Below the pieces are notes generated by a model. It was not told the DNA's origin and made no database searches. It saw only the letters and a program-made list of their open reading frames with translations. Positions 14,246 through 44,971 of a stretch of 44,971 nt of DNA are shown here, one piece after another. A program made the translations under genes and the position numbers. Position 1 is the stretch's first letter. Every line of letters begins with the position of its first letter. Source of the DNA: a virus; the IMG/VR virus record IMGVR_UViG_3300001460_004689, positions 12,719 through 57,689 of that record; one strand, 5' to 3'.

Positions 14246-14257
14246 AAATATATTTAT
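14242..14257. promoter_or_regulatory. Bidirectional T4-late-type promoter palindrome
   Basis: GCATAAATATATTTAT contains the perfect palindrome ATAAATATATTTAT (14244-14257), giving an ATAAATA late-type -10 element on each strand between divergent genes. On plus it would start transcription about 20 nt before the ATG at 14278. On minus it abuts the ATG at 14245, predicting a near-leaderless mRNA. The identical 16 bases occur at 18114-18129, also at a divergent junction. T4-like phages use TATAAATA for late transcription by the sigma factor gp55; use here is inferred. Confidence 0.65.
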
Positions 14258-14277
14258 CATTAACAGAGCATATAATT

Positions 14278-15327: not shown

Positions 15328-15926
15328 GTTTAAGTTATATATGTGATAGACCATACAATATCTATCAAAGCTACGAAAAGCTAAAGCCTCATTACGATAT
15401 GAGTGTACACATGGACTTTATGGATGGACACTTTGTTCCACGTTTGGGTGTGCATCCAGAAGCAGTAGACGAACTGAGTTATCCCAGCCACATCGACGCC
15501 CACTGTATGATAGCTAGTAACAACCCAGCATGGGACGACATACTACGCACACAAGCAGATGTTATATTTGCACACTACGAAAGTTTCCACAGTGAAACAG
15601 ATTGTGTTGACTTTTTGTCAAGAGATCCAAGACTAAAGCTAGCGTTCAAACCATATCATACTATAAAACAAATAGACACTATTTGCGATAGACTATCAGT
15701 TGATGAATTTTTATTAATGGCTTATGCTCCGGGTATCAAAGTACAAGATGCATACTACAACTTGGAAACACTAGAAGATACACAACGTCATGTTACAGTT
15801 GATGGGGGAGTTACAATAGACACAGTAAGACAGTTTAGAGAAGATCCCAAAGTAACACTGGTGGTAGGAAGTAAAGTATTGTTTAATGATAAATTTGAGG
15901 AGAACCTTGAGTGCCTAATCTCTTAA
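15318..15926 (+). CDS. Ribulose-phosphate 3-epimerase family protein
   Basis: 202 aa, near the usual ~220 aa. TIM-barrel pentose-5-phosphate 3-epimerase: VHMDFMDGHFVP with metal ligands H31 and D33 and the conserved MDG, then IDAHCMI (third metal His), and HVTVDGGVTIDTVRQF with the catalytic Asp, followed by LVVGSKVLF. All key residues are present, so an active epimerase is plausible on Ru5P or a related keto-sugar phosphate. It sits with a nucleotidyltransferase/kinase fusion, a SIS isomerase and an HAD phosphatase, which suggests production of an activated sugar rather than central metabolism. GTGs and ATGs overlap on both sides. Confidence 0.85.
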   Translation: MQLSLSYICDRPYNIYQSYEKLKPHYDMSVHMDFMDGHFVPRLGVHPEAVDELSYPSHIDAHCMIASNNPAWDDILRTQADVIFAHYESFHSETDCVDFLSRDPRLKLAFKPYHTIKQIDTICDRLSVDEFLLMAYAPGIKVQDAYYNLETLEDTQRHVTVDGGVTIDTVRQFREDPKVTLVVGSKVLFNDKFEENLECLIS

Positions 15927-17326
15927 TACCTTGCAGTGGTCCTGGCACCCGAAGTTCTGGATATACCAAATTTCACAAAACATTGAATCGAGTAGGTTCG
16001 TGTGCAGTAATAGATCATATTATTGCTAGCTACACTAACATTGACACAGTCTATGTAACTCTTGGATATCAAAGAGAACGTGTGCGTGAATACTTAACAC
16101 ATGCTGGTTACAATAACATAGAATTTATTGAAATAGACAACTGGAGCGAAGGGCAAATGTCTAGCTTTAGACAAATACCCGAACATGTATTTGATAGTCC
16201 GTTATATTACAACGCATGTGACAACTGGAGCGACCAGGTTCCTGCTGTACACGACAATACATTTTTTACATGCAATCCTTCTAACAGTTCATATTATGAT
16301 ACAGATGGTGATTTAGTTTACAGTGGCATAAGTTTTATGAAAGACAGTATGGACTATTATCGCATACTACAAGCCAGTACCCACAATAGGAATGATCTCT
16401 TAATAATGAAAGAGCTTGATACACTACAGCACCAAGAATTGGATACTTGGTATGATATAGGCAATCGAGAAAGTCGTGCTGGTACAGTTACACAATTTGA
16501 AGATGAGTTATTAGTTCTTGACAAGAACCATCAGGAAGTATACAAAGTAAACAATAGAATAATTAAATTATTCGATAATCCTACTACTATTAATTTAGAT
16601 AATAACACATTTCCACACCCCCAACCAGTAATGAGTACAGACACATCATTGAGTTATGAGTTTGTAGAAGGTGAAGTAAATCCTTATGGTGACAACTTTA
16701 CAAAATTTTGGAAGAATTTAGAGAATCTATGGACGTATTGTTTAACCAACAATTCCCCAACTGTTAATAAACAACTGTGGCAAGAGAAAACCTGGCGAAG
16801 GTTTGAGATGATGTGTAAGTCAGATGAAAAATATGCCGGAACGTTAAAAGTTAATGGAGTCGATATAGACTGTACTCGAACAATAGAAAATATTGATTGG
16901 GATATTCTTAATAATGGTATACTAGGACCTTGTCACGGTGACTTAACAATGGATAATATTATTGTCAATAAAGATAATATATACTATATAGATCATCGTG
17001 CTGGCGTAGTCAATGATATATTTTATGATATTTGTAAATTTTATCACAGTTTACATTTGCATACATTCAATTTAGAAAATTATCACTTGACAGAAACAGA
17101 TGATGGTTATACAATAAAACTATCACTTAGTGAAGAGGATGAACTTCGACTAAATCAGTTTCGCCTTAGTCCTATATATTGTCAGAACAAACGCAAGATA
17201 GAACTGGGTATTGGATGTATCTGGCTTAGTATGAGTCCTCTAAATGTTGACAAACAACTAAACAAGTTTCTGTTTTTGTCAGCTATACAACAGTTAAAAA
17301 AGTATGATACAACAGACAAAAAGTAA
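15911..17326 (+). CDS. Sugar nucleotidyltransferase-like domain fused to APH-like kinase
   Basis: 471 aa from a GTG start at 15911, overlapping the epimerase. The N-terminus LLIPCSGPGTRSSGYTKFHK (4-23) is a variant of the GxGTR..P/TK signature of sugar-1-phosphate nucleotidyltransferases. NWSEGQMSSF and a possible metal-binding ACDNWSD follow. The C-terminal half has the aminoglycoside-phosphotransferase/choline-kinase loop CHGDLTMDN (about 340-348) and YYIDHRAG (about 357-364). The protein could phosphorylate a sugar at C1 and then activate it with an NTP, like separate HddA/HddC-type steps. Overlaps the SIS gene by 23 bp. Confidence 0.75.
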   Translation: MPNLLIPCSGPGTRSSGYTKFHKTLNRVGSCAVIDHIIASYTNIDTVYVTLGYQRERVREYLTHAGYNNIEFIEIDNWSEGQMSSFRQIPEHVFDSPLYYNACDNWSDQVPAVHDNTFFTCNPSNSSYYDTDGDLVYSGISFMKDSMDYYRILQASTHNRNDLLIMKELDTLQHQELDTWYDIGNRESRAGTVTQFEDELLVLDKNHQEVYKVNNRIIKLFDNPTTINLDNNTFPHPQPVMSTDTSLSYEFVEGEVNPYGDNFTKFWKNLENLWTYCLTNNSPTVNKQLWQEKTWRRFEMMCKSDEKYAGTLKVNGVDIDCTRTIENIDWDILNNGILGPCHGDLTMDNIIVNKDNIYYIDHRAGVVNDIFYDICKFYHSLHLHTFNLENYHLTETDDGYTIKLSLSEEDELRLNQFRLSPIYCQNKRKIELGIGCIWLSMSPLNVDKQLNKFLFLSAIQQLKKYDTTDKK

Positions 17327-17810
17327 CTTTGAACAAACATGGATTAGCTATGTAAACGAGCTTAATAATACTGATAACGAAGTTGCGATTATCAGTGAGA
17401 TTAAACGTGCAAATCGTATCGTGTTTATTGCTAAAGGCAGAGTTGGGCTAGCAACTAAAATGTTTATGCAACGACTCAGCCAAATGGGTTACACAGTAAG
17501 TCACAGTGAAGACTTACTAATAACTCCTATAGATGAAAATGATCTAGCAGTGTTTGTAACAGCAAGTGGATCAACACTGAGCAGTCTGGCATACACAATG
17601 GTAGCAACAAATGCAGGATGTCGAACAATGGCTATTACATTTAATCCTGACGGAGCAATATGTAAACAGTGCGACAACATAGTAAGTTATCCACAACCTA
17701 AAACACAAGGCTTGATGAAAAGCTACCATGAGATAGGATTCATTTATATATTTGAAAAAATTATCAGTTTGCTTCCACAGGATCAATTTGTTCATACAAA
17801 CTTTGAGTAA
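17304..17810 (+). CDS. SIS-domain phosphosugar isomerase
   Basis: 168 aa, a complete single SIS domain: RIVFIAKGRVGLATKMFMQRLSQMGY, then SEDLLITPIDENDLAVFVTASGSTLSSLAY, GCRTMAITFNPDG and a final CDNIVSYP. The GRVGLATKMFMQRL segment resembles the G-R-S-G-L-V-A-K-x-F-A-x-R-L of 6-phospho-3-hexuloisomerases, and SGSTLSS is the phosphate-binding Ser/Thr loop. It would isomerise an aldose/ketose phosphate feeding the kinase/nucleotidyltransferase upstream. Convergent with the HAD gene, with a 47-bp 3' overlap. Confidence 0.82.
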   Translation: MIQQTKSNFEQTWISYVNELNNTDNEVAIISEIKRANRIVFIAKGRVGLATKMFMQRLSQMGYTVSHSEDLLITPIDENDLAVFVTASGSTLSSLAYTMVATNAGCRTMAITFNPDGAICKQCDNIVSYPQPKTQGLMKSYHEIGFIYIFEKIISLLPQDQFVHTNFE

Positions 17811-18117
17811 ACCAATGTTCACTGTTAAAACTTTTATCGCAAATGTACATGTCAAAGTTTGGCTTTGCATTCATAACAAGTTCATGATACTTGCAACCCC
17901 ATTCAGCAAGTTGTTCAGTGGTCATGTCAGTCCAGTCGATGCCCTTAGTAGCACCTCTGGCAGTCCAATATACTATGGTATGTCCTTGCTCGTAAAGTTT
18001 ATTAATTTTTTCTATTCTATCTTTGAAAGGTTTTTGGCTACGATACTGTTGTTCAGTCTTTCCTTTGTGAGGAAGATCTTCACAGATGGTGCCGTCAATG
18101 TCAACATATATAAGCAT
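17764..18117 (-). CDS. HAD-superfamily phosphatase
   Basis: 117 aa. HAD motif I is DIDGT (D6, D8). The protein continues with INKLYEQGHTIVYWTARGA (motif II Thr) and a motif III region KPNFDMYICDKSF; the usual second acidic residue appears as Cys-Asp rather than Asp-Asp. Small HADs of this type occur in polysaccharide loci beside SIS isomerases and nucleotidyltransferases and remove a phosphate from a sugar intermediate. The start codon at 18117 is directly fused to the promoter-like palindrome, as for the cupin gene. Function in heptose-like activation is inference from the neighbours. Confidence 0.8.
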   Translation of the reverse strand: MLIYVDIDGTICEDLPHKGKTEQQYRSQKPFKDRIEKINKLYEQGHTIVYWTARGATKGIDWTDMTTEQLAEWGCKYHELVMNAKPNFDMYICDKSFNSEHWFTQSLYEQIDPVEAN

Positions 18118-18129
18118 AAATATATTTAT
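18114..18129. promoter_or_regulatory. Second copy of bidirectional T4-late-type promoter palindrome
   Basis: The same 16 bases as at 14242-14257 (GCATAAATATATTTAT), with palindrome 18116-18129, at the divergent junction of the HAD gene and the APS kinase gene. On minus it runs directly into the HAD start codon. On plus a leader of about 25 nt with GGAG (18146-18149) precedes the ATG at 18155. Recurrence of the exact sequence at the only two divergent junctions argues for function. Confidence 0.68.
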
Positions 18130-18154
18130 TAACTATGTACTTAATGGAGTTAAA

Positions 18155-18583
18155 ATGAAAATCCTAATATTTGGACTACCAGGCAGTGGCAAAAGTACAC
18201 TAGCAAAACCTTTTGCTGAGTTAATAGATGCAGTGTGGTTAAATGCTGATCAAGTAAGAGAACAAGCTAACGATTGGGACTTTACACCCGAAGGTAGAAT
18301 GCGTCAAGCAAAACGTATGCGAGACCTAGCAGATGGTGTTGTTGCCAATGGCGGTATAGCAGTAGCTGACTTTGTTTGTCCAACAGAACGTGCAAGACAA
18401 GAATTTGCACCTGACTACACAGTGTGGATGGATACTATTGAACAAGGACGCTACGCGGATACAAACGCTATATTTGAAAAACCGCCTGCATGTGACTACC
18501 ATGTAGCCAAATGGTTTACAGACACAGCTGAGCAACTTAAACCAGTTGTAGAAAGATGGAGACAACGTAATGGCTTTCTCTAA
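18155..18583 (+). CDS. cysC: Adenylylsulfate (APS) kinase-like P-loop kinase
   Basis: 142 aa from ATG at 18155, preceded by GGAG with good spacing; a longer upstream frame runs through the promoter and is rejected. Walker A is GLPGSGKST (7-15), then WLNADQVREQANDWDFTPEGRMRQAKRM and GGIAVADFVCPTERARQEF, matching APS kinase (LDGD.vR, GFs..dR, A.IsP....R) with Asn in place of the first Asp. APS kinase phosphorylates APS to PAPS, the donor for sulfotransferases, and this window has two sulfotransferase-like domains. A related small-molecule kinase cannot be excluded. Overlaps the next gene by 14 bp. Confidence 0.75.
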   Translation: MKILIFGLPGSGKSTLAKPFAELIDAVWLNADQVREQANDWDFTPEGRMRQAKRMRDLADGVVANGGIAVADFVCPTERARQEFAPDYTVWMDTIEQGRYADTNAIFEKPPACDYHVAKWFTDTAEQLKPVVERWRQRNGFL

Positions 18584-18944
18584 TAACAAGCCCACTGCAC
18601 AAATGTTAGGTAGATGGCAACCCTGGCATGAAGGTCATACAGAGCTGTTCAAACGTATTCGCAGTGAATATGATCAAATTTGGATTGCAGTAAGAAACGT
18701 ACAAGGATGGGAAGACAATCCTTTTGACTACCACGATATTAGAACAAAGATTAATAACGCACTATTTGCTGAAGGTTTTAGGTATGCACATGATTATGAA
18801 ATATCACTTGTGCCAAATATTGTAAACATCAGTTACGGCAGAGGCGTAGGTTATACGTTTACTGAGCATGATTTGGGAGAGCGTGTACACAATATAAGTG
18901 CTACAAAAATTCGTGCTGAAATGAGACAGCGAGGTGAGCTTTAA
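18570..18944 (+). CDS. HxGH-type nucleotidylyltransferase
   Basis: 124 aa. GRWQPWHEGH (14-23) is the nucleotide-binding (T/H)xGH loop of the cytidylyltransferase/NMN adenylyltransferase family, and ISATKIRAEMRQRG near the C-terminus is the matching ISxTxIR motif. The length fits small cytidylyltransferases; the substrate could be a sugar- or glycerol-phosphate, NMN or another phosphate ester. Its tight coupling to the APS kinase suggests a joint role, but the sequence lacks the QxRNPxH motif of ATP sulfurylase, so it is not a standard sulfurylase. Confidence 0.75.
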   Translation: MAFSNNKPTAQMLGRWQPWHEGHTELFKRIRSEYDQIWIAVRNVQGWEDNPFDYHDIRTKINNALFAEGFRYAHDYEISLVPNIVNISYGRGVGYTFTEHDLGERVHNISATKIRAEMRQRGEL

Positions 18945-19132
18945 TGTGGGTCCTGGTATTTGTATACTTTTATGATGCAACTCCTTATGTTGAAAAGGTA
19001 AGTCAACACAGAGATATGACTGAGTGTTTTTATGCAAGAGAAGCATTAGCTGATGAAGTAGGCAGAGGTGCAGGATACTTCAAAGCAGGACAACAAGCTA
19101 TGTGTATTAATATGGACGAGACTAAAATATGA
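18944..19132 (+). CDS. Small conserved-type protein of unknown function
   Basis: 62 aa. Start is the ATG in TAATG with the upstream stop; its own stop overlaps the next start (ATGA). N-terminal MWVLVFVYFY is hydrophobic but too short and too close to charged residues to be a confident membrane segment. The rest has a Cys near the middle (TECFYARE) and one near the end (AMCIN). Coupled translation on both sides supports a real gene. Function not recognised. Confidence 0.65.
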   Translation: MWVLVFVYFYDATPYVEKVSQHRDMTECFYAREALADEVGRGAGYFKAGQQAMCINMDETKI

Positions 19133-20094
19133 TTACCTGGGGTTGGACAGGTATGAGCCACGATGCAAGTCTTGCAGTGTTTGTTGATAATAAATTCAGA
19201 TGGGCAAGACGTACACAACAATATACGCATGTGGTCAATGACAAGACACTGTGTTTGCCATTAATTAAGGATGCATTACAATTTGGTAAACCTACACAAA
19301 TATATTTTTATGAAATACCTTGGCTTAAAAAAACACGTCAACTGTGGGCAGGTCAATACACACTACTAGGCAAACAATCACCTACAAAATATATGCGGAG
19401 TTTTTGGAAAGATGCGCCTAAAAGCACTACAACTAGTCATCATTTGAGTCATGCCGCCGCAGGATATTACACAAGTGGATTCGATGATGCCGCTATACTA
19501 GTAATGGATAGTATCGGAGAATGGAATACAATTACTATTTGGGAAGGCACAGGTTCAGAACTTAATCGTAAGTTTGTACAAAATTATCCACACAGTATAG
19601 GTATTTGGTACAGTGCAATGACACAAAGAGTAGGACTACAACCTCAGACACAAGAACATATGATCACTGAGATGGCACAAGTTGGAAACAGTGATAGATT
19701 TTATGAATTAATTAAAACAGAATTTATTAAAAAAATGCCAAGTATTGATGATCCTAGGTTACTGTTTAAAAGAAATTGTCACAGAGGATGCAGACACTGG
19801 CGTCCCGAATTAAATACAGTACAAGACTTAACAGATATCGCTTCGGCTACACAACGTATATTTGCAGAGATAGTTGACTTATTAATTGTATGCAGTCTAC
19901 GATTGACCACTAGTAAGAATATTGTGCTTATGGGTGGCTGTTCAATGAACAGTGTTTGCAGAGAATCGGCCAATAAATATTTTGATAAAACTTGGATTAT
20001 GCCAAGTCCTGGTGATGCTAGTAGTGCATTAGGTTGTGTATTAGCACATACTAAATCAAAAATACGAGTTAAAAAAACAATATGGAGCGAGTAG
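19129..20094 (+). CDS. NodU/CmcH-family carbamoyltransferase, N-terminal domain only
   Basis: 321 aa. HHLSHAAAGYYTSGF (H104, H105, H108) is the metal-binding signature of the Kae1-like domain of carbamoyltransferases, followed by AAILVMDSIGEW, LMGGCSMN and SPGDASSALG. These enzymes transfer a carbamoyl group from carbamoyl phosphate, via carbamoyl-AMP, to a hydroxyl of a sugar or antibiotic. Family members such as NodU and TobZ are about 560-580 aa with a second C-terminal domain; here the frame stops after the first domain with no frameshift remnant, so a one-domain phage version is likely. Starts in an ATGA overlap. Confidence 0.8.
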   Translation: MITWGWTGMSHDASLAVFVDNKFRWARRTQQYTHVVNDKTLCLPLIKDALQFGKPTQIYFYEIPWLKKTRQLWAGQYTLLGKQSPTKYMRSFWKDAPKSTTTSHHLSHAAAGYYTSGFDDAAILVMDSIGEWNTITIWEGTGSELNRKFVQNYPHSIGIWYSAMTQRVGLQPQTQEHMITEMAQVGNSDRFYELIKTEFIKKMPSIDDPRLLFKRNCHRGCRHWRPELNTVQDLTDIASATQRIFAEIVDLLIVCSLRLTTSKNIVLMGGCSMNSVCRESANKYFDKTWIMPSPGDASSALGCVLAHTKSKIRVKKTIWSE

Positions 20095-35366: not shown

Positions 35367-36475
35367 CACAAGATTTAAAATGGAGCGAATATGACTTTAC
35401 CAAAATCCCGTTTGACGACCTTGTTAGCGTCGGGCAAAGGACACTCTTATATCGAGACGTATTTACTGTTAGCTGGCTCCTCGGCAGATTCTGTAATTAC
35501 AAATGTAGCTACTGCTGGCCCTACGCAAGAAGCGACAGGAAAGATCATAGACCTACAGAGTTATGTCTTGCAACGATCGACGAAATAAAGAGGCAAGCCC
35601 GTGTTAATGGTTTTAACAGCTTTCATTTTAGCTTGTCTGGTGGTGAGCCTACTTTCCACCCAGGATACTTGGATATACTGTCGCATTTGGCTGATGATGT
35701 CAGTAATACTAATTACACTAGTGTCCATATGACCTCAAATTGCAGTCGCAATATGAAATGGTTCAAAGATTATGTAGAGCGTGTTAAGCCTTTCCACCGA
35801 GCAAGTATTACAGCAAGTTTACATACAGAACATTTAAATAGTAAAGAGAAGATGCAGGACTTTGCAGACAAGTTAATCTTCTGTCAGGAGCATGATGTAC
35901 AAATTACAATCAATATGGTTATGGTTCCAGAATGGTTTGAGAAAGACTGGGATAATGCCCTCTTCTTCCACAATCAAGGAATCAACGTTACCCTCAAACC
36001 CCAAAGTGATCCAACGGCAAGTAGAGTCGTGGACGGTTATACAGACGAAATGCTACAGCGATTGCATAACGGAATGCCACAAATGGGCTATACTGAAACA
36101 AAGCGGCAGTGGGCAGACCGTCCAAAACCTAGTTTCGAACTGCCGACTACAGCAATAGGCGGCAACGATAAAACAGTACCTTGGCACTTCCAAGTAGAGT
36201 TTGAAGATAGCACAGGTAAAAAATGGTATATGGATCAAGCAGAACGTTTTAATGCTTTTAACTTTAATAAGTTTAAAGGATGGAGTTGCAATGCTGGCTA
36301 TCAAGGTATTATTATTAGAGAGCCAGATGGTAGTATCAAACGTAGCTACAGTTGTTATGATAATCCATTGGGTAATATAGAAACTGGATTTAAATTATTT
36401 GACAGTGCTATGCCTTGTATAAGTCCAAGTTGTGTCAGTAGTGCAGATAGTAAAATACCAAAACGGAAAGTTTAA
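35363..36475 (+). CDS. Radical SAM protein with C-terminal Cys-rich domain; mosaic composition
   Basis: 370 aa from ATG at 35363 (ATGA); an in-frame TTG upstream is rejected. Radical SAM motif CNYKCSYC (C44, C48, C51), SGGEPTFHPG, and a C-terminal part with GWSCNAGYQ, SYSCYDN, LGNIETGFKLF and CISPSC, closely matching the C-terminal layout of the protein at 25958-26929. Hand counts give about 43% G+C for 35401-36180 but about 34% for 36181-36480, so the first two thirds differ in base use from the tail and from typical neighbours. This suggests recombination or recent acquisition. Function unknown. Confidence 0.84.
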   Translation: MTQDLKWSEYDFTKIPFDDLVSVGQRTLLYRDVFTVSWLLGRFCNYKCSYCWPYARSDRKDHRPTELCLATIDEIKRQARVNGFNSFHFSLSGGEPTFHPGYLDILSHLADDVSNTNYTSVHMTSNCSRNMKWFKDYVERVKPFHRASITASLHTEHLNSKEKMQDFADKLIFCQEHDVQITINMVMVPEWFEKDWDNALFFHNQGINVTLKPQSDPTASRVVDGYTDEMLQRLHNGMPQMGYTETKRQWADRPKPSFELPTTAIGGNDKTVPWHFQVEFEDSTGKKWYMDQAERFNAFNFNKFKGWSCNAGYQGIIIREPDGSIKRSYSCYDNPLGNIETGFKLFDSAMPCISPSCVSSADSKIPKRKV

Positions 36476-36476
36476 A

Positions 36477-36971
36477 TTGAAATATGCAATTACAGGACAC
36501 AGTTACGGAATAGGCGAAGCACTATACAATCGCCTTGATAGTATAGGATTCAGCAAAAGCACAGGGCATGACATACATGACAGCAACATTAGAAAACAAA
36601 TTATTGAAGCTAGCAGTGATTGTGATGTTTTTATTAACAATGCACCAGCAGGGTTTGCACAAAGTCATTTACTATTAGAACTGTGGCATGCATGGCGAGA
36701 CACTGATAAAACTATTATCAATGTGGGCAGTAGAATAGCACAGCCTAATTTTGATTTACCAATGGAATACAATCATTTGCTTAGATATCAAATGCACAAA
36801 CGCACACTCAAACAACTTAGTGAAACGCTAAGTGCTTTAGATACACCAGTAACTGTAAAGTATCGTTGGTTTGCATATGTTGGTACGCCTAAAATACTAG
36901 CCAAATATCCTCATTTTACAGAAAATGATTATATAAGTATTGATGAAGCTGTGGAAATAATACTCGCATGA
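36477..36971 (+). CDS. Short-chain dehydrogenase-like protein
   Basis: 164 aa from a TTG at 36477 with GGAAAG upstream (36465-36470). TTG is chosen because it gives MKYAITGHSYGIGEALYNRL, a proper TGxxxGIG nucleotide loop; no ATG or GTG does. CDVFINNAPAG is the NNAG motif, NVGSRIAQ supplies Ser, and RYQMHKRTL is the YxxxK pair. Length is short for an SDR. Similar in layout to the protein at 33118-33666. It overlaps the next gene by 4 bp. Probably an NAD(P)-dependent oxidoreductase; substrate unknown. Confidence 0.72.
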   Translation: MKYAITGHSYGIGEALYNRLDSIGFSKSTGHDIHDSNIRKQIIEASSDCDVFINNAPAGFAQSHLLLELWHAWRDTDKTIINVGSRIAQPNFDLPMEYNHLLRYQMHKRTLKQLSETLSALDTPVTVKYRWFAYVGTPKILAKYPHFTENDYISIDEAVEIILA

Positions 36972-37537
36972 AATATTTTAAAGAATTAAATAATCTTCCA
37001 GTATATACTGATTTATTACAACAAATAAATCAATACGATTTTCCATGGCGTAGTAATCAAGTGTGTATCAATACAGTGCCAGGACATGAATCAGACACAG
37101 AGTATGGCGTTGGCAGTTTGGTATATGATTGGGAAAACAAACACACTGAAAAAGACGAACACGGAAATGATCGTGTAGTTGTGCCTGAGTTTGCAGTACC
37201 AAAGCAAGAACAAGACTTTACAAAGGTGTGTGATGTATTTCGAGGCACAGTGTTTGAACACATATACACAGAGCTGAATAAACTGTATGTGTTGGGCAGA
37301 GTTAGACTTATGCGAAGTAAAAGCAAAACTTGTTTAAGCTGGCATCAGGATACCAGCACACGAATACACTATCCGATTAAAACACAAGAAGGATGCTTTA
37401 TGTTAATTGAAGATGAAGTAATACATCTCAAACAACATCAATGGTATTGGACAAACACACTACCAAAACACACAGCATTCAATGCTAGTAGAGAAGATAG
37501 GCTACACCTAGTTGTAGTTGTACTAGATGAACGATAA
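36968..37537 (+). CDS. 2OG-Fe(II)/aspartyl-asparaginyl hydroxylase-like protein
   Basis: 189 aa. SWHQDTSTRIHYPI has the metal-binding HxD (H126, D128) with the downstream Arg-x-His-x-Pro typical of the aspartyl/asparaginyl beta-hydroxylase branch of the cupin-like 2-oxoglutarate/Fe(II) superfamily. KHTAFNASREDRLHLVV supplies the distal His (H168) and an Arg for 2OG binding. It would hydroxylate a small molecule or a protein side chain using O2 and 2-oxoglutarate. First of seven such genes in this part of the window. Confidence 0.8.
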   Translation: MKYFKELNNLPVYTDLLQQINQYDFPWRSNQVCINTVPGHESDTEYGVGSLVYDWENKHTEKDEHGNDRVVVPEFAVPKQEQDFTKVCDVFRGTVFEHIYTELNKLYVLGRVRLMRSKSKTCLSWHQDTSTRIHYPIKTQEGCFMLIEDEVIHLKQHQWYWTNTLPKHTAFNASREDRLHLVVVVLDER

Positions 37538-38336
37538 TCTATTTGACAGCCCGTGGGTACAAAGTCCACAAATACCCAGTGTACAACAGTTAATAAAAAC
37601 TGTAGAACCTGTTAACTATCCACGTGGTAGCGGACAAGCTAGACAGCGTTTGGACTTATTAGAACAAAAATATCGAGCATGGGTAAGTGACTGTATCGAT
37701 CTTGCACAGTTTAAACACTGTTACTTTGTTAATGGTGTAACAGATGCACTCAATCAATGGATAGCAACTGAATCAAGACCTTGGCAATATCTCAAAGGTG
37801 ATTATGAATATGCTCGTATGATTGGCGGTAACGGTGAATGTGTTGACGAGATACAACCCGATAAACTACTGTATATCAGCAATCCTGCATGTGCAACTGG
37901 TAACGTAATAGAGCTTGACAAAGTTGAAAATGATGTTATACTGGATTGTGCATATGTCGGAACGACTAGTAAACATCGGATACTCCCGCCTAAAAATACT
38001 GAGCAAATATGGTTCAGTTTTAGTAAAGGATGGGGACTAATTGGACAGCGTAGTGGATTGGTATTTTCTAAACGACCACACCGCAGTTTAAATATAATGA
38101 AACGTGTAGAAGCGTGGAACTATACCAGTGTTGAAATATGTTTAGCTATTTTAGCTAATTACGATATAGATACAGTTTATAACGAATATAAACAAAAACA
38201 ATTAGATGTATGTACTGAAATGAATCTAACACCCAGCGATTGTTTTTTCATAGCCAACAGTACACACGAAGAATACGCTAAACGAAGGCGTATAGGCAAC
38301 ATTGCCAGACTAGACTTGTCTAAATTATTAAGATAA
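37527..38336 (+). CDS. PLP-dependent aminotransferase-like protein (fold type I)
   Basis: 269 aa, short for the family (~350-400 aa). YFVNGVTDALNQW, YISNPACATGNVIELD, VILDCAYVGTTSK and SFSKGWGLIGQRSG (PLP-binding Lys) match, in order, the class I/II aminotransferase motifs: cofactor loop, S-NP, D-x-AY and SFSK-x-x-G-x-x-G-x-R-x-G. The small N- and C-terminal domain seems reduced. Possible amino acid or amino-ketone transaminase for a product also handled by the 2OG oxygenases. Overlaps the upstream gene by 11 bp; a 25-bp gap follows. Confidence 0.7.
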   Translation: MNDNLFDSPWVQSPQIPSVQQLIKTVEPVNYPRGSGQARQRLDLLEQKYRAWVSDCIDLAQFKHCYFVNGVTDALNQWIATESRPWQYLKGDYEYARMIGGNGECVDEIQPDKLLYISNPACATGNVIELDKVENDVILDCAYVGTTSKHRILPPKNTEQIWFSFSKGWGLIGQRSGLVFSKRPHRSLNIMKRVEAWNYTSVEICLAILANYDIDTVYNEYKQKQLDVCTEMNLTPSDCFFIANSTHEEYAKRRRIGNIARLDLSKLLR

Positions 38337-38361
38337 GTAATAGTCTAATTAGGAAACTAAC
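38337..38361 (+). promoter_or_regulatory. Short gap with Shine-Dalgarno before the gene at 38362
   Basis: One of the few gaps in the window. AGGAA (38351-38355) lies six bases before the ATG at 38362. No ATAAATA element and no stable hairpin with a U-run is visible, so it looks like a translation initiation region rather than a promoter or terminator. Confidence 0.5.
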
Positions 38362-38973
38362 ATGAAAAAACAAGATTTACCTTCAATAGCCAATCTGAAT
38401 CTTGACATCGATCTTGCAAGATTAAGAGAAGCAACAGATACACTTGCACAAAAATTTGTGGATGTACGAACAGCAAACCCAATGCTATGCGATAATCACA
38501 TGGAGTTAGTAGCAGATGTTTATGATAATTTTGAACAAATTAACTTGACTGAGCCAAGCGAAATACTACCATATGAACCTAGTATTAAAAAACGTTTGAG
38601 ACGCAGAGAAGAGCATTTGTATAATCAACCTACACAAGATTACACTGATAGTGTATTCCAAAAAATTGTAACACAATTAAAAGCGCCTGCTAGCAGAGTA
38701 CGAATAACAAAGCTCGCACCAGGCAAAACTATTCCTTTTCACGTAGACTATGATGTGAGTTATGCAGTCAGGTGTATTGTTCCAGTATATGGCGGAAAGA
38801 ATGTAATTAATTTATTTAAAAGAGACGGAAAGCTAGAAGCATATAATTTAGAAGATGGAACGGCAAACTTTCTTAATATTGGTTATCCACATGCTGTGGT
38901 TAATATGAGTGACCAACCAAGAATAGCTTTGATGTTTAGTTTGGATGGCACAGATGACCTCACAACTTTATGA
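38362..38973 (+). CDS. 2OG-Fe(II) oxygenase (aspartyl hydroxylase-like)
   Basis: 203 aa. LAPGKTIPFHVDYDVSYAVRCIVPVYGG contains HxD (H127, D129) followed by the usual VRCIVP strand; NIGYPHAVVNMSDQPRIALMF carries the distal His (H177) and the 2OG-binding Arg. The layout fits the aspartyl/asparaginyl beta-hydroxylase-like group. The N-terminal ~70 residues are helical and unassigned. Good Shine-Dalgarno upstream. Substrate unknown. Its 3' end overlaps the TauD-like gene by 20-29 bp depending on that gene's start. Confidence 0.8.
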   Translation: MKKQDLPSIANLNLDIDLARLREATDTLAQKFVDVRTANPMLCDNHMELVADVYDNFEQINLTEPSEILPYEPSIKKRLRRREEHLYNQPTQDYTDSVFQKIVTQLKAPASRVRITKLAPGKTIPFHVDYDVSYAVRCIVPVYGGKNVINLFKRDGKLEAYNLEDGTANFLNIGYPHAVVNMSDQPRIALMFSLDGTDDLTTL

Positions 38974-39745
38974 CTACACAGACGACGAACTAAGAGACAC
39001 TATGAAGCAAGTCCAGCAAGATGGGCTTGCAATATTCACTGAACAAGAATATACAGAAGCACAACTTACCAGTATATTCAAACGTGTTGGTGAATGTGAA
39101 GCACCTGGATTGTTTATGAATGATCCAGATCATCCTGAAATATTTAAAGTAAGTGGTGAAAGAGATGCAGAAGGAAACAAAATTGGTATGTTTGGCGATG
39201 GCGAATTGGGCTGGCATAGCAACGGAAACAGTAGGCATCAAATTGACAAGATACTTATAGGTTTGTATTGTGTAAAAGGTGATCCTAATACTACACTGAG
39301 TATATGCAATACCAGTCAACCTTATTATGATCTTAGTGAGGACGAACGTGAGTATTACGAAAGTATAAAAATTAAGATCAAGTTTAAGAATCATACCATG
39401 TACAGTTTAGATGATGATGACCCTGAACTGGAGTTTATGAACAAAAACAGAGGCAGTATTAGAAATCTAATAGGAGTACACCCGCACAATGATCTCAAGT
39501 ACTTTTACTTTCCCTACCACTTTATATGTGGTGCATGGGAAGGCAAAAAGAAAGTAGATCATGAACCTATTATTGAAAAGTTAATACCTAAAATATTCAA
39601 AAGCAAACATCAAACACATCATATATTTCAACAGGGTGACATGTTGTTTATGGATCAGTTTACCAGCTTGCATAGACGTACACCTGTAATGGGTCCTAGA
39701 TTACTTTGGAGAGTTGCTAGCGATTATAAAAGAATGTGGAATTAA
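38945..39745 (+). CDS. TauD/TfdA-like dioxygenase family protein with HxN in place of HxD
   Basis: 266 aa; an ATG at 38954 would be an equally good start. GLAIFTEQEYTEAQLTSIF, LGWHSNGNSR, LSICNTSQPYYDL, and the late FMDQFTSLHRRTPVMGPRLLWRV follow the taurine-dioxygenase family. The proximal His (H91) and distal His (H243, with Arg) are present, but the Asp of HxD is Asn (N93, codon AAC at 39221). The iron site would thus lack a carboxylate ligand, so the reaction could differ or the protein may not be a hydroxylase. One base separates it from the methyltransferase start. Confidence 0.75.
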   Translation: MAQMTSQLYDYTDDELRDTMKQVQQDGLAIFTEQEYTEAQLTSIFKRVGECEAPGLFMNDPDHPEIFKVSGERDAEGNKIGMFGDGELGWHSNGNSRHQIDKILIGLYCVKGDPNTTLSICNTSQPYYDLSEDEREYYESIKIKIKFKNHTMYSLDDDDPELEFMNKNRGSIRNLIGVHPHNDLKYFYFPYHFICGAWEGKKKVDHEPIIEKLIPKIFKSKHQTHHIFQQGDMLFMDQFTSLHRRTPVMGPRLLWRVASDYKRMWN

Positions 39746-39746
39746 A

Positions 39747-40433
39747 ATGCAATTACAAAAATCATTAAACAGACCTATACCTTGGCCCAGTATTCACAAG
39801 CTAGACCAACTCAAAGGAACAGAAAACAAACCAGTCAGAGTTCCACTACAAGAACAATATACCATTGCAGATATGGCTTATTTGGATACGCCAGAAGCAT
39901 ATCCATTGTTTGAAAAACAAGCAAGAATTATTAAAAATAAAAAGTATACAGGTATTATTGATGTTGGTTGTAGAACTGGTATAGTAAATGACATACTACA
40001 CGAAGATGGATTTAAATACTACGATTACAATTATTTTGGGTTTGATACAAGTAGCGAACCAATTCATAAAGCACAAAAAACTTATGCAAACTGTGATCAT
40101 ATAAATTTTGCAGTGCAAAGTTGGATCGTTCCTGTTAAAGTAGACTTTGAAGTTGACGTAATGATATTCAGCGGTGTACTACTGTATATAAAAAATAATC
40201 TTCTCCGAGAAGAATTCTTTAAAAATCAGATGGCACAACACAACTGTAAAAATGCAATTATACAAGAGCCTTATCATTTTCAAAGACATTGGGATGATAG
40301 ATTAATATTGAATACTATCACAAATGGCGGCTTAGACTTTTTAAATAAAGATTATAAAGTTGACGAACACTATTTAGACTTGCCAATATTTGCAGGAAAG
40401 AGAGTGTTGTACGATGTCAGTTCTCGCACTTAG
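39747..40433 (+). CDS. Class I SAM-dependent methyltransferase
   Basis: 228 aa from ATG at 39747, one base after the upstream stop; an earlier in-frame start would overlap the dioxygenase. Core: TGIIDVGCRTGIVNDIL (SAM loop DxGxxxG), YFGFDTSSEPIHKA (acidic strand-2 end), DVMIFSGVLLYI and an ending QEPYHFQRHW. Substrate unknown. SAH released here could be cleared by the nucleosidase at 33663-34211. Overlaps the FMN reductase start by 20 bp. Confidence 0.78.
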   Translation: MQLQKSLNRPIPWPSIHKLDQLKGTENKPVRVPLQEQYTIADMAYLDTPEAYPLFEKQARIIKNKKYTGIIDVGCRTGIVNDILHEDGFKYYDYNYFGFDTSSEPIHKAQKTYANCDHINFAVQSWIVPVKVDFEVDVMIFSGVLLYIKNNLLREEFFKNQMAQHNCKNAIIQEPYHFQRHWDDRLILNTITNGGLDFLNKDYKVDEHYLDLPIFAGKRVLYDVSSRT

Positions 40434-41025
40434 TACCAGTGCATGTCCGGATAGCATAAACTATCGTGGACTATTATTACTAAACAAGTTGTGCAATTTT
40501 ACTAGTGTAGATAGACTTAGCAACTACGACTTACCTGTTGTAAATGTAAATGGCATGGACGATCCAGTACCACAGTGTTTATTAGATCTAATAGATGAAA
40601 TGTGGAAGTATGATAAGTTTGTTTTTGCTGTGCCAGAGTTTACTGCTATGATGAGCAGTAGTACTAAAAATCTATTAGATTGGCTGGTAGTAACAAATAA
40701 TATGAACTTGGGACATGGAGAAGGATATCCTTTTACTAAAAAACATGTGATAATACTTACATTTACACCCAGTGGAAACGAAGGCGGCAGTAGGCATTTT
40801 GAACAAACCAAAGAAGTGTTTAAAAAGTTAGGTGCTAATGTAATATATATGGAAGCATTTAATGATTGTTGGGAAACTGTAGTACCTGGAAATGAACAAC
40901 ATTTTGCTGAAGCAGGAAACAGACTAAACAATTATCTAAGTTATCAAAAAGACAATAACAAATATTTTAAAAATAAATATTTACAATGGAACCAACAATG
41001 GAGAGACAATGGGACAGGAATCTAG
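40414..41025 (+). CDS. NADPH-dependent FMN reductase family protein (flavodoxin-like)
   Basis: 203 aa from ATG at 40414 (MSVLALSTSACPDSINYRG, the FMN phosphate loop region). FVFAVPEFTAMMSSSTKNLLDWLVV is the family signature PEYNxSxPxxLKNxxDW in slightly changed form, and VIILTFTPSGNEGGSRHF lies where the flavin is bound. It may reduce FMN or a quinone with NAD(P)H. Reduced flavin could help supply electrons to radical SAM clusters or oxygenases, but no direct sequence link shows that. Overlaps its neighbours. Confidence 0.78.
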   Translation: MSVLALSTSACPDSINYRGLLLLNKLCNFTSVDRLSNYDLPVVNVNGMDDPVPQCLLDLIDEMWKYDKFVFAVPEFTAMMSSSTKNLLDWLVVTNNMNLGHGEGYPFTKKHVIILTFTPSGNEGGSRHFEQTKEVFKKLGANVIYMEAFNDCWETVVPGNEQHFAEAGNRLNNYLSYQKDNNKYFKNKYLQWNQQWRDNGTGI

Positions 41026-41764
41026 AAACGTATTACTGGACAAGGGAGACTTCCCTGAAGAGATACCAGGCATTTGTGAATACATAGATATTCCCGACGA
41101 GCGTGAAATACTATTAAGCATGTGGGAACAAATTGTAGAAAAAGAAGAAACACTTGGCGTAGGTGAAAAACGTATGCTGGTAAATTGTCACAGTCATGAT
41201 AGACACAATGTATTTGGAAAAACAAAATGGCAAAGTTATGCAATGGGAGATTTGGGCGATACTGACAATGGTAATGGTAAAATATTTGAACCGTTGTTAC
41301 AAAGACATAGACAAGTACACCCTGACATGCAACTTAGAAGTACAGGATTTAATTTTAGCGACAGTGAAAAGAAAGAACTATATGTACACACAGACTTAGA
41401 TCCCAGAAGCGAACATCCAAATTATTTTAATATAGTGTTTCCTGTTCATGGTGCAAGTCGTATTGATTACTATGAAACTAGACCAGAAGAGATATGGTTG
41501 CCAGAACGTAATGCAAGAAAAGAATATTACTATCATGAATTTAGACCTGAATTTAAGTTTGATAAAGAACACAATGAAGGCAGACGCATTGGTCATATTA
41601 CTGTAGACAAGCCTGTGTTAATTGATACAGATGTATTACATGGTGTACAGATACAGCAAGCACCTAGACTTGCTTTTGTAGTACGTTACAACAACATACC
41701 AAAAGAACTAGACTTTCATGCTTTTAAAACACATGCTGAAGAGGTATTGAATGCTTTGGGTTAA
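41009..41764 (+). CDS. 2OG-Fe(II) oxygenase-like protein
   Basis: 251 aa. YVHTDLDPRSEHPNYFNIVFPV carries the HxD (H127, D129); PVLIDTDVLHGVQIQQAPRLAFVVRY carries the distal His (H211) with the following Arg. The double-stranded beta-helix pattern and spacing fit the 2-oxoglutarate/Fe(II) superfamily. A long N-terminal region (about 120 residues) is unassigned. Overlaps the upstream gene by 17 bp and the next by 14 bp. Substrate unknown. Confidence 0.72.
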   Translation: MGQESRNVLLDKGDFPEEIPGICEYIDIPDEREILLSMWEQIVEKEETLGVGEKRMLVNCHSHDRHNVFGKTKWQSYAMGDLGDTDNGNGKIFEPLLQRHRQVHPDMQLRSTGFNFSDSEKKELYVHTDLDPRSEHPNYFNIVFPVHGASRIDYYETRPEEIWLPERNARKEYYYHEFRPEFKFDKEHNEGRRIGHITVDKPVLIDTDVLHGVQIQQAPRLAFVVRYNNIPKELDFHAFKTHAEEVLNALG

Positions 41765-42305
41765 AACATATCCAATAACTATACCAGATTACTTTGCTGG
41801 ATTTTGTCAAGACTTTACAGAAAATAATGACCCTGCTCCAGAAGGAATGTACGAAAGTGTAGCTGATAGTAGTATGTGGACCATATGGAATACAGATCAA
41901 AAGAAAAGACAACAACTAGCAGAGTTTAGACAGAACATAAAAAATGTAACTGGAGCAAATTTAGATTATCCAAAAGGATTTCTTTGTATCTGGCGATATG
42001 ATGAGAACTTCACACAATGTCCAATACATATAGATGGTCAAGGTACACACAGTGGAGATATAACACCTAGAAAACATAACGGAAGTGTATGTACAAGTAT
42101 ACATGGAGAGTTTAAAATACACCTACATCACAGAGATACTAAAGAAATATTAGACAGTGTCTCAGTAACTACTAGTAATGTAATAGTATTGAACAATACA
42201 GTATATCCGCACAGTGTTGAAGGACAAGGTGATCTGGCTGTGTTTGGAGTTGATTTACAAAGTAATCCAGAAGAATTTTTTGCAGGAGAGGCGCCCAATG
42301 TATGA
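41751..42305 (+). CDS. 2OG-Fe(II) oxygenase-like protein
   Basis: 184 aa. CPIHIDGQGTHSGD (H93, D95) and VYPHSVEGQGDLAVFGVD (H154) form the HxD...H triad, with FKIHLHHRDTKEIL between. The first domain of the next protein has the same pattern (GPHIDRGD, VTLHDPETKQVLE, HHIEGVGDLVVFG), so the two genes arose by duplication. Small single-domain enzyme; substrate unknown. Overlaps the next start by 8 bp. Confidence 0.72.
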   Translation: MLWVKTYPITIPDYFAGFCQDFTENNDPAPEGMYESVADSSMWTIWNTDQKKRQQLAEFRQNIKNVTGANLDYPKGFLCIWRYDENFTQCPIHIDGQGTHSGDITPRKHNGSVCTSIHGEFKIHLHHRDTKEILDSVSVTTSNVIVLNNTVYPHSVEGQGDLAVFGVDLQSNPEEFFAGEAPNV

Positions 42306-43611
42306 TTGGTGTAGAACATACAAGTATGATATAGAACGTTTTGATCTAGCTACATTTATAGATCAAAGCAAAGCAAATGAAACAGAGCCCAACAGTGTTG
42401 GTTGGTATTTGTATGAAGATAAAAAAGACTTTAGCAAACAAACTGAACTACTCAGACATGAACTAGGACTAATGTTTGACAGTGAAATACGATACATGGG
42501 TGTGTGGGATTATTATCCAGGATTTGTTGACAGTTTAGGTCCACACATAGACAGAGGTGACATAGAGAATGCTGTGGTGTTTATGTGTCCTCGGGGCGAA
42601 TTAATAGTAACACTGCACGACCCAGAAACAAAACAAGTATTAGAAACTAAAAAACTTAGCGGTAATAATATAATGGTATTGTACCATACAAAGTTTATGC
42701 ATCATATTGAAGGCGTAGGTGACTTGGTAGTATTTGGATTGCCACAAGACTTTGATGCTGAAATGTTTTTTAGAGCAGATGGCAAATATTTCAAGAGACA
42801 TACAATAGATTATGATGTTGACAAACTACTTAATGAAGTAATGGAATTGTATCCTAGTGATCCAGATAAAATTACAACATTCAATTACTTTCCAATGAGT
42901 GAAGGACACACAGAATATACATTTACATTTGATCCTTTGCCAGATCATATGCGAGATGCTATTGAACGAACAACAGGTGAAAAACTTGTGCCAGGAATAA
43001 CTTATCTCAGTGACTTTAGAAATACAGCTACCAGTTTAGATATACACAAAGACCCACGTTGGAATGCACTAGGACCAATACCTCCTTTGTTAAGTATGGT
43101 TTGTTTAGATGGGTATACACGTTTTTATGTTTGGACTGGACGTAATGGTACAAAGCTATTAGACATGTGTTTGTATGGTCCGGGTGATGTAATTACATTT
43201 GATCATACAGAAGTTTTTCACAGTGCAGATAGTGTACTAAAGGATAGGCGTAAAAGAAATATGCAGTGCTACAGTTATGGAAATGAAGCTGTTCCATTTG
43301 TAGTACAGTACAATGATTGGTATAAAAAGTACAGACCTTGGGTAGAACAGTTTGTAGAAGAAAATAATATAACAGATAGTATTGATTGGGAGCAACCAAT
43401 CTTTACAGCATATGATAATTATGTTTTAGCCAGTATCAGTATAATAGATATTGAAGGCGATATAGGATATGTGAGAACCTATGACGCACACAAAGATAAT
43501 ACATTTGAGATAGCAATGAGACCACATGTAATTGACTGGGCAGAGGATAATGGTCTAAAGCCAATGGTAAAAAGAGAACATGACGGGACCGTTGTAGATT
43601 ATGCACTATAA
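42298..43611 (+). CDS. Tandem 2OG-Fe(II) oxygenase-like protein
   Basis: 437 aa from ATG at 42298 with AGGAG upstream (42284-42288); an in-frame start 28 codons earlier lies inside the previous gene. Domain 1: GPHIDRGD (H83, D85) and MHHIEGVGDLVVFG (H135/H136), close in pattern to the protein at 41751-42305. Domain 2: DIHKDPRWN (H250, D252), YGPGDVITFDHTEVFHSAD (H308) and RKRNMQCYSYG with Arg for 2OG. Two HxD...H sites in one chain suggest successive or two-substrate oxidation. A C-terminal ~100 residues remain unassigned. Confidence 0.72.
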   Translation: MYDWCRTYKYDIERFDLATFIDQSKANETEPNSVGWYLYEDKKDFSKQTELLRHELGLMFDSEIRYMGVWDYYPGFVDSLGPHIDRGDIENAVVFMCPRGELIVTLHDPETKQVLETKKLSGNNIMVLYHTKFMHHIEGVGDLVVFGLPQDFDAEMFFRADGKYFKRHTIDYDVDKLLNEVMELYPSDPDKITTFNYFPMSEGHTEYTFTFDPLPDHMRDAIERTTGEKLVPGITYLSDFRNTATSLDIHKDPRWNALGPIPPLLSMVCLDGYTRFYVWTGRNGTKLLDMCLYGPGDVITFDHTEVFHSADSVLKDRRKRNMQCYSYGNEAVPFVVQYNDWYKKYRPWVEQFVEENNITDSIDWEQPIFTAYDNYVLASISIIDIEGDIGYVRTYDAHKDNTFEIAMRPHVIDWAEDNGLKPMVKREHDGTVVDYAL

Positions 43612-44260
43612 AGTAATCGAACAAGCATTTACACAAGATGAACTTGATCAATTTGTTAACTATTGGGAAAATAACGCTGATAGCATCTATGTCACAAGAG
43701 GTATGAATAAACTACAAGAGCCATGGAGTTTACCTATTGTACAACGCATTATAAAGCCCGTGTTAGACCGTTACTTTGATACTAGTATAAAGAACTTGGG
43801 TGATAATATATACAGACATGATGCACCTTATTATCCACATGTAGATATAAGCAAAAACATTTATCCTTGCTTTAATGTTCTTATCCCAATAGCACAAGAA
43901 AAACCAGTTGAGCAACACTTTATAATATACGATCAGTGGGTCAATGAATATGTTGGTGCTACTTGGTTAGGTGAATGGTATGAACAGCAAGCAGACTTTG
44001 ATAATAATAAAAAACGTGCTTATCCTTATGACGATAAAATTGTAGAAGGAATATATAGTGATAAAGTATTGGATCATTTAACAATACAAGGAAAAGAACA
44101 TGCATTGTTTAAAGGATTAACAGGAGTGGCATTGGATTTTAAACCAGGCAATCTAATAATTTTTGACAGTAAACATATTCATGCAACAGGCACTATGACT
44201 GATGGTTGGAAAATGGGTTGCACACTTAGGTTTGCTGGAGACTACTATGAATATTTCTAA
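43601..44260 (+). CDS. 2OG-Fe(II) oxygenase-like protein
   Basis: 219 aa. YYPHVDISKNIYPCFNVLIPI (H80, D82) and NLIIFDSKHIHATGTMTDGWKMGCTLRFAGD (distal His H194 and Arg near the end) give the iron and 2-oxoglutarate sites of the superfamily; the layout resembles phage prolyl-hydroxylase-like proteins. N-terminal FTQDELDQFVNYWENN is a typical lead-in helix. Overlaps the upstream gene by 11 bp and the downstream one by 14 bp. Confidence 0.75.
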   Translation: MHYKVIEQAFTQDELDQFVNYWENNADSIYVTRGMNKLQEPWSLPIVQRIIKPVLDRYFDTSIKNLGDNIYRHDAPYYPHVDISKNIYPCFNVLIPIAQEKPVEQHFIIYDQWVNEYVGATWLGEWYEQQADFDNNKKRAYPYDDKIVEGIYSDKVLDHLTIQGKEHALFKGLTGVALDFKPGNLIIFDSKHIHATGTMTDGWKMGCTLRFAGDYYEYF

Positions 44261-44831
44261 GTTCAAACTGCCTTGTGGATATACAGTTGTACCTATTATA
44301 GTCAACGGACAAACACCAGATAAAAATGTTAATGACATTGCTATGCGTACATTACCATTACTAGAAGCTGATAGTGTAAATGATAAACTAGCAGACAACT
44401 ATACACTAAAAGGGCTTAAATTACAAGATATGCTTATATATAGTGTGTTGTGGGATTATCAAATGGATAGACCTGTACTATGCACAGGTGCTCAACATAC
44501 ATCCAAAAATACTTGTAGATTGTTTAGTCGATTTTGGTTATTCAGTGATTATAGAACAACTCAAACAAATCAAAAGTTCAATCAAATTGATGACTTTCAA
44601 ATTGACTTATGGCATATGCAACAATTACAAGATAGGTATCCATTTTTCTTTTGGAGTAGAGAAAAAGGTAATAGATTCTTTCAACGTATTAAACAAAAAA
44701 GACCAGATGTATTTGATACCTGGCATGTTCACAACGAAAATATTGAATTAATATGGAAGAATAATTGGCAAGGAATACTGTATACAGGTAATGCAGAATA
44801 CTTGAATGAATTAATTTTTAACGGCAATTAG
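44247..44831 (+). CDS. Protein of unknown function
   Basis: 194 aa from ATG at 44247 (overlapping the upstream stop by 14 bp); an earlier in-frame ATG at 44202 lies well inside the oxygenase gene. No recognised motif. Features: an N-terminal strand-rich KLPCGYTVVPIIVNGQ, a central aromatic cluster (LFSRFWLFSDYR) and a basic stretch FFQRIKQKRPDVFDTW. It has only a few Cys and no HxD. Its end overlaps the convergent desaturase gene by 21 bp. Possibly part of the same pathway as the oxygenases by position. Confidence 0.6.
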   Translation: MNISKFKLPCGYTVVPIIVNGQTPDKNVNDIAMRTLPLLEADSVNDKLADNYTLKGLKLQDMLIYSVLWDYQMDRPVLCTGAQHTSKNTCRLFSRFWLFSDYRTTQTNQKFNQIDDFQIDLWHMQQLQDRYPFFFWSREKGNRFFQRIKQKRPDVFDTWHVHNENIELIWKNNWQGILYTGNAEYLNELIFNGN

Positions 44832-44971
44832 ACCAGTCTTTGGATGAAAAAGTTTTTCTGCAATCCATCCGCCGGTGTCCCATTTATGCAATCGTATTTT
44901 ACGAAAGTTGTTATGGTGTTGTCTATGGAAACCTTCACCAGCAATAAAAAAGTTTAACCACGGAACATCTG
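44811..44971 (-). CDS. Fatty acid (acyl-CoA/acyl-lipid) desaturase, C-terminal fragment
   Basis: 53 codons visible, the 5' part lies beyond the window. The reverse strand reads FIAGEGFHRQHHNNFRK, the third histidine box (GEGxHxxHH) of membrane delta-9-type desaturases, which bind a di-iron centre with three His boxes. WDTGGWIAEKLFHPKTGLI follows and the protein ends VKN. In such enzymes this box is near the C-terminus, so the gene is probably intact outside the window. It would introduce a double bond into acyl chains in the host membrane. Overlaps the 3' end of the convergent plus-strand gene by 21 bp. Confidence 0.82.
   Translation of the reverse strand, partial: DVPWLNFFIAGEGFHRQHHNNFRKIRLHKWDTGGWIAEKLFHPKTGLIAVKN

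Follow-up and report, generated by a model that had tools for sequence, protein, structure and literature searches.

Why should a virus carry seven genes for iron-dependent oxygenases side by side? This question is raised by the right-hand end of IMG/VR virus record IMGVR_UViG_3300001460_004689, which is 57,689 bases long and of which bases 12719-57689 (44,971 nucleotides; 'the window') were analysed here. The original prediction, made from the letters and their open reading frames (ORFs), described seven ORFs with eight H-x-D/N...H motifs as a cluster of 2-oxoglutarate (2OG)-Fe(II) oxygenase genes; the coordinates agreed exactly with ours (Table 1) and the motifs proved to be conserved across the protein families. 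Sequence comparison suggests that the cluster is probably one copy of a conserved cassette that marine T4-like phages carry for oxidative biosynthesis (tailoring).

A conserved gene core in marine viruses

Searching with the product of OxB (gene names as in Table 1) led to a viral locus, L002, that repeated nearly the whole gene set. With an alignment of the TauD-type oxygenase TAU, at least 107 relatives came to light in IMG/VR viral contigs, and 80 of them were taken into the survey. The 84,980 species genomes of bacteria and archaea yielded just four loci. Among 50,697 phage records, AT, AAH, MT, OxA and the OxB family occurred only in phage Mosig, and TAU in Mosig and then, as a distant second, in P-HM2; no relatives of OxD or OxE were found in these records.

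Core genes were counted in 36 non-redundant loci that extended at least 4.5 kb on each side of TAU. TAU was present in 36 loci, the desaturase gene DES in 35, AT in 34, and MT and AAH in 33 each. The aminotransferase, methyltransferase, desaturase, AAH and TauD genes are therefore the conserved core of a cassette found in many viruses. Thus, the neighbourhood survey proposed with the original prediction revealed a recurrent core, and the aminotransferase and methyltransferase genes, correctly placed by that prediction and described there, like the FMN reductase gene, as interleaved, turned out not to be incidental (33-34 of the 36 loci). Accessory genes were less frequent: FMN was found in 23 loci, TA2, OxA and the peroxiredoxin gene PRX in 17 each, and the OxB family (Mo76) in 16. 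The acyltransferase gene NAT and the conserved gene GNx were each present in 17 loci, one or the other in 34, and the two never together. Each locus had between three and eight labelled oxygenase genes. Core gene order and overlaps recurred among the loci, and independent seeds (the OxB family, and the family comprising OxC and the OxD N-domain) reached loci with the same genes. With the single OxD protein as query no relatives were found in viral contigs or phages; the alignment of the OxC/OxD N-domain family reached 15 loci.

The T4-like marker gp23 was absent from the 57.7-kb fragment, but Mosig has it, as do four of six searched IMG/VR records longer than 120 kb, the closest relative included. 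The gp23 genes of these related records, and the finding that for most of the genes Mosig was the sole isolate with a match, lend support to a marine T4-like identity. In the record that contains locus L010 the gp23 gene (G002:C1:110962-112079) appears to be interrupted by stops and frame changes, perhaps through an assembly error.

Three contigs of metagenome-assembled genomes (MAGs), titled Bacteriovoracaceae, bacterium and Bdellovibrionia (L084, L085 and L086), also had cassette-like clusters. Because these clusters adjoin housekeeping genes they suggest that a bacterial biosynthetic counterpart exists, with binning errors a possible source. As read from the sequence, the same loci encode an Asn-synthetase-like protein, B12-type radical S-adenosylmethionine (SAM) proteins and small Tat-signal-like proteins.

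Fold and metal site of the oxygenase domains

A double-stranded beta-helix (DSBH) fold or a family hidden Markov model (HMM) was found for six of the eight domains: OxA, AAH and TAU matched Pfam, OxB and the OxD N-domain were assigned by comparing AlphaFold2 (AF2) models with the PDB, and OxC by homology. Searches of Pfam, PHROGs and NCBIfam gave no meaningful family assignment for OxB, OxC, OxD or OxE. These fold and family assignments, which covered the domains other than the OxD C-domain and OxE, gave no sign that several of them lie outside this fold. In every domain except TAU the 2-His-1-carboxylate motif H-x-D...H was conserved across the family, and the eight conserved H-x-D/N...H motifs are not chance occurrences.

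In the OxA family, which was linked to the AAH family by hhalign (96.7%), residues H126, D128, H168 and R178 were invariant (29 of 29 members). The metal triad of the AAH family was likewise invariant (82/82), and its best PDB profile match was a nucleoside-antibiotic beta-hydroxylase (E 5.6e-4). Sequence searches of the OxB family against the PDB gave nothing informative. Its AF2 model (pLDDT 85), predicted from an alignment without the Mosig row, had AspH as the top Foldseek match (E 6.6e-5), and comparison by VIA returned proline 3-hydroxylase (Z 10.5; rmsd 3.2, 152 residues aligned), ALKBH5 (Z 10.3) and AspH (Z 9.9); H127, D129, H211 and R220 were invariant in 20-21 family members. The OxD N-domain was modelled with a pLDDT of about 90 over most of residues 1-160 and resembled ALKBH5 (VIA Z 13.5) and ALKBH7 (Z 13.3; rmsd 2.5, 145 residues). 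OxC was homologous to this domain (hhalign 99.2%), and the OxC and OxD genes were adjacent in the window and in L002, L047, L071, L088, L093, L096 and L098. The OxD C-domain gave a poor AF2 model, a marginal hhalign match to the N-domain (53%, E 1.4e-4) with H-x-D and the distal His in register, and a weak PDB profile match to WelO5 (E 0.14). For OxE no HMM, PHROG or profile link was found; its residues H80, D82, H194 and K204 were invariant across nine relatives. Based mainly on these conserved motifs, the OxD C-domain and OxE are classed as putative oxygenases.

A TauD lineage with an asparagine at the metal site

The TAU profile matched the solved TauD/TfdA enzymes RdpA (4.7e-17) and ScoE (1.6e-16), the nearest solved relatives in a profile search. 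Both of these carry H-x-D, whereas the phage family reads H-x-N: both His residues were present in all 131 sequences, and the middle metal residue was Asn in 126 and Asp in only 5. The Asn column aligns with the Asp ligand of RdpA and ScoE, so that the acidic third ligand (H-x-D/E) expected of a TauD enzyme is lacking. In a 30-member alignment of the family neither the two His ligands nor the distal Arg varied, and the Asn was also kept in bacterial relatives and in that of P-HM2. As the Asn is conserved and not decayed, this lineage may reveal new iron-enzyme chemistry. The substrate of ScoE is an amino fatty acid.

The other cassette enzymes

The AT profile matched HisC structures (best E 4.9e-4), Aminotran_1_2 was detected in 10 of 27 members, and the pyridoxal phosphate (PLP) lysine, Lys167, was present in all 75 members in which this column was filled; by homology and this lysine AT is assigned to the class I/II PLP aminotransferases. 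An AT paralogue adjoining the OxC/OxD pair at another locus (L098:5512-6375) has the PLP motif as FDFTRGFG, with the Lys changed to Arg, and is probably catalytically dead. The MT profile matched SAM methyltransferases in the PDB. For the DES family, the profile matched PF00487 and the acyl-CoA desaturases 4zyo (1.6e-13) and 4ymk (4.3e-13), and the family has conserved His columns and homology to SCD1, which place it with the delta-9 type of acyl-CoA desaturase; the window copy comprises the C-terminus only. NAT, the counterpart of GNx in other loci, matched the GNAT family (PF00583 at 3.4e-5). On one of the bacterial MAG contigs (L085:13225-14226) a NAT-family GNAT was fused to a SET domain (PF00856, E 2e-9).

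A stable core with exchangeable modules

On the TauD tree PRX, FMN, OxB, f8 and TA2 each required 8-10 changes. The f8 family was counted as another oxygenase on the strength of its conserved pattern H-Y-D...H...R, not of an HMM match. Between f8 and OxB the changes went in opposite directions in five to six of seven independent pairs and never in the same direction, and FMN and OxB moved together. Core genes with measurable dS (AAH, 0.09; TAU, 0.03; and AT) had dN/dS values of 0.03-0.10, indicating purifying selection. Our reading is that of a stable core with exchangeable tailoring modules.

What the cassette may make

The core enzymes could act in sequence on one metabolite, a small molecule or lipid, made during infection. 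In such a scheme an acyl chain would be provided or altered by the desaturase and acyltransferase, the aminotransferase would add or remove an amino group, and AAH, TAU and the methyltransferase would hydroxylate and methylate the metabolite. The FMN reductase and peroxiredoxin would keep iron reduced and clear peroxide from uncoupled oxygenases. Swaps of accessory oxygenases would then alter the oxidation pattern of the end product; tailoring genes in natural-product clusters change the product in a like manner. From general knowledge of the families, the enzyme set would suit the building and oxidising of an acyl-linked amine. If the cassette is indeed biosynthetic, our preferred guess at its product, though less likely than not, is an oxidised acyl-amine or aminolipid that acts at the host envelope. 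That the whole represents a virus-borne, natural-product-like cluster, in which a core pathway with exchangeable oxygenase modules (the Asn-ligand TauD, and an AlkB-like pair without the 2OG-binding residue) diversifies molecules in abundant marine bacteria, falls just short of an even chance; it would be a possible new route by which viruses influence the chemistry of such bacteria.

Several observations weigh against the biosynthetic interpretation. No acyl carrier protein (ACP) domain was found in nine related records, and an ACP-dependent lipid route was rejected on this ground; nor was any nonribosomal peptide synthetase (NRPS), polyketide synthase (PKS) or adenylating enzyme recognised. 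With none of these, the starting substrate would have to be a host metabolite. GNx showed no detectable GNAT homology and no Pfam or PDB match. TAU was the seed of the survey, so its presence in 36/36 loci is by construction. The NAT/GNx state required only two changes on the TauD tree, so that the exclusivity of the two genes is largely a single lineage split; free swapping between them was rejected, and the Fisher test (p 2e-8) overstates the case. Finally, the OxC and OxD N-domain families have no conserved Arg or Lys after the distal His, the residue that usually binds 2OG and that is present in the OxA, OxB and TAU families, and because of this lack these two may not be ordinary 2OG enzymes. 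Thus, the description of all seven genes as 2OG oxygenases was supported as regards the iron-oxygenase fold, but 'ordinary' is too simple for OxC and the OxD N-domain, and for TAU with its Asn ligand.

Three other explanations of the locus were weighed. The cassette might decorate surface glycans, acting with the upstream sugar-nucleotide and glycosyltransferase genes to place an unusual sugar or a non-sugar substituent on a host envelope glycan and so to block superinfection or alter recognition. In Mosig the cassette is flanked by VrlC and the neck genes, within the host recognition cluster of pelagimyophages, which holds glycosyltransferases (PMC7029224), sugar-nucleotide-type genes can be read upstream in the window, and an aminotransferase, acyltransferase, methyltransferase and hydroxylase would also fit the synthesis of a substituent. 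However, AT is HisC-like and not of the DegT type, the desaturase is of the acyl-CoA type, and in L002, L004 and L010 the cassette stands beside ThyX and replication genes, and therefore adjacent glycan genes are not required; we regard this explanation as unlikely. Distinctly improbable in our view is that the oxygenases modify proteins or nucleic acids, hydroxylating phage or host targets (tail fibres, ribosomal proteins, tRNA or DNA). Folds like those of AspH, JMJD, FIH and ALKBH, and the membership of AAH in PF05118, would agree with it, as would the m70/m71-type genes found after the cassette in about 15 of the 50 loci (in the Mosig annotation m70 is a tail-fibre gene) and the DNA-repair role proposed for cyanophage 2OG oxygenases (PMC3037559). 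Yet likeness within the DSBH superfamily does not reveal the substrate, and it is not obvious what the desaturase, aminotransferase and FMN reductase linked to the oxygenases would contribute to such modification. Collagen-like tail fibres were rejected as the substrate, as collagen-like GXY repeats were missing from the four sequences scanned.

The last explanation is that of a loose hotspot, in which unrelated oxygenases gather in a hypervariable region and together may only draw down 2-oxoglutarate, altering nitrogen signalling. The region is a known hypervariable site (PMC7029224), modulation of 2OG has been proposed for cyanophages (PMC3037559), and accessory genes turn over frequently. 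Nevertheless, the five core genes occurred together in 33-36 of 36 loci at differing genomic positions, partly also in bacterial MAG contigs, the same core was partly seen with other neighbours in unrelated genomes, and conservation at residue level suggests specific substrates, making a loose hotspot very improbable. For the cassette as an oxidative biosynthetic unit, the fixed core with its desaturase, aminotransferase and methyltransferase makes the role of phage oxygenases a testable pathway question, for which Mosig and HTCC1062 offer a cultured pair.

Organisation of the locus

The cluster occupies the extreme right of the record, which breaks off inside the desaturase gene. Its ORFs form a single overlapping operon on one strand, mostly overlapping by 4-29 bases with a few gaps of 1-25 bases, and the seven oxygenase ORFs alternate with AT, MT (bounds approximate) and FMN. 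The borders originally given, 36968-44260, were too narrow, as the cassette also takes in GNx and the desaturase C-terminus (Table 1).

Table 1. Genes at the right-hand end of the window (positions are those of the window)
Gene	Position	Strand	Assignment	Basis or remark
	36432..36971	+	short SDR/Rossmann-like protein (named by sequence reading, not HMM)	relatives adjoin OxA family in 8/50 loci
OxA	36968..37537	+	Asp_Arg_Hydrox (PF05118) oxygenase, HQD...H...R	Pfam E 4.8e-8
AT	37527..38336	+	short PLP fold-type I aminotransferase-like, intact Lys motif; core	HisC profile match; Lys167 conserved
AAH	38362..38973	+	Asp_Arg_Hydrox (PF05118) oxygenase, HVD...H...R; core	Pfam E 1.6e-6
TAU	38945..39745	+	TauD/TfdA-family oxygenase, H-S-N replacing H-x-D/E; core, survey seed	Pfam E 2.3e-18
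MT	39747..40433	+	class I SAM methyltransferase; core	Methyltransf_23 E 3.2e-5, below gathering score
FMN	40414..41025	+	NADPH-dependent FMN reductase; accessory	PF03358 E 1.1e-13
OxB	41009..41764	+	2OG-oxygenase-fold protein, no Pfam family, HTD...H...R	AF2 and PDB comparison; family of Mosig_00076
OxC	41751..42305	+	oxygenase-fold protein, HID...H	homology to OxD N-domain
OxD	42298..43611	+	two domains: AlkB-like DSBH N-domain (residues 1-160) and C-domain, HKD...H...R	AF2 for N-domain
OxE	43601..44260	+	putative 2OG oxygenase, HVD...H...K	motif level only
GNx	44247..44831	+	conserved protein in place of the GNAT acyltransferase NAT of other loci	no Pfam/PDB match
DES	44811..44969	-	acyl-CoA-type desaturase C-terminus, cut by record end; core	relatives in 64 loci, up to 98% identity

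Upstream in the window, sequence reading indicated phage-tail-type genes and then radical-SAM and glycan-type genes. The 57.7-kb record had 17 radical-SAM (PF04055) matches (window 1-36475 and L001 7936-12799), many of the genes standing in tandem and having a common N-terminal Cys motif; in the radical-SAM gene that spans the left edge of the window, near L001 12344-12799, a small number of bases are masked or ambiguous (X in translation). In window 4608-20094, again by reading only, genes of the sugar-nucleotide type were seen for an NDP-sugar dehydrogenase, epimerases (of which one is on the minus strand), a DegT-like aminotransferase fused to an N-terminal half of no recognised family, a cupin, a ribulose-phosphate epimerase, a nucleotidyltransferase, a SIS isomerase and a carbamoyltransferase-like fragment. 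The earlier remark that three iron-dependent routes of C-H activation are brought together here holds at gene level, the oxygenases being joined by the radical-SAM genes and the acyl-CoA-type desaturase, and the heavy iron cost it envisaged for the virus is plausible, hinging on protein copy number and local iron.

Comparison with known systems

T4-like marine cyanophages have several 2OG-Fe(II) oxygenase genes each, with DNA repair or modulation of 2OG as proposed functions (PMC3037559). The TAU relative of P-HM2 also reads H-S-N. However, its identity is only 23.5% and its gene is a solitary one amid replication genes, without the cassette, and P-HM2 was rejected as a cassette carrier for this reason. 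In pelagimyophages the host recognition cluster is a large region, hypervariable and containing glycosyltransferases as well as radical-SAM cassettes, and aspartyl/asparaginyl beta-hydroxylase is called a core gene (PMC7029224); the desaturase-AT-AAH-TauD-MT unit is not described in the passages found of that paper. Unlike that cluster, the cassette is near replication genes in several loci here, and in L004 it abuts ThyX and replication-type genes. In Mosig it sits between VrlC and neck gene gp14, and the window record ends inside it. The literature searched, mostly open-access and with bioRxiv preprints outside it, gave no account of the cassette as a unit.

The closest known system is therefore Mosig (EXVC030M; MT647606), whose host is Pelagibacter ubique HTCC1062 and which came from an oxygen minimum zone, a notable origin for oxygen-dependent enzymes. 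Its genes 72-81 comprise the same core, with Asp_Arg_Hydrox, fatty acid desaturase, aminotransferase, FMN reductase, OxB-family, TauD and methylase genes, and its TauD is 62.5% identical to that of the window. Mosig differs in having NAT in place of GNx and a peroxiredoxin gene, with no OxC, OxD or OxE nearby. The genes are annotated singly in Mosig and the genome announcement makes no mention of a cassette; when the loci are compared, they appear to form a conserved, previously undescribed unit within the phage auxiliary metabolic genes.

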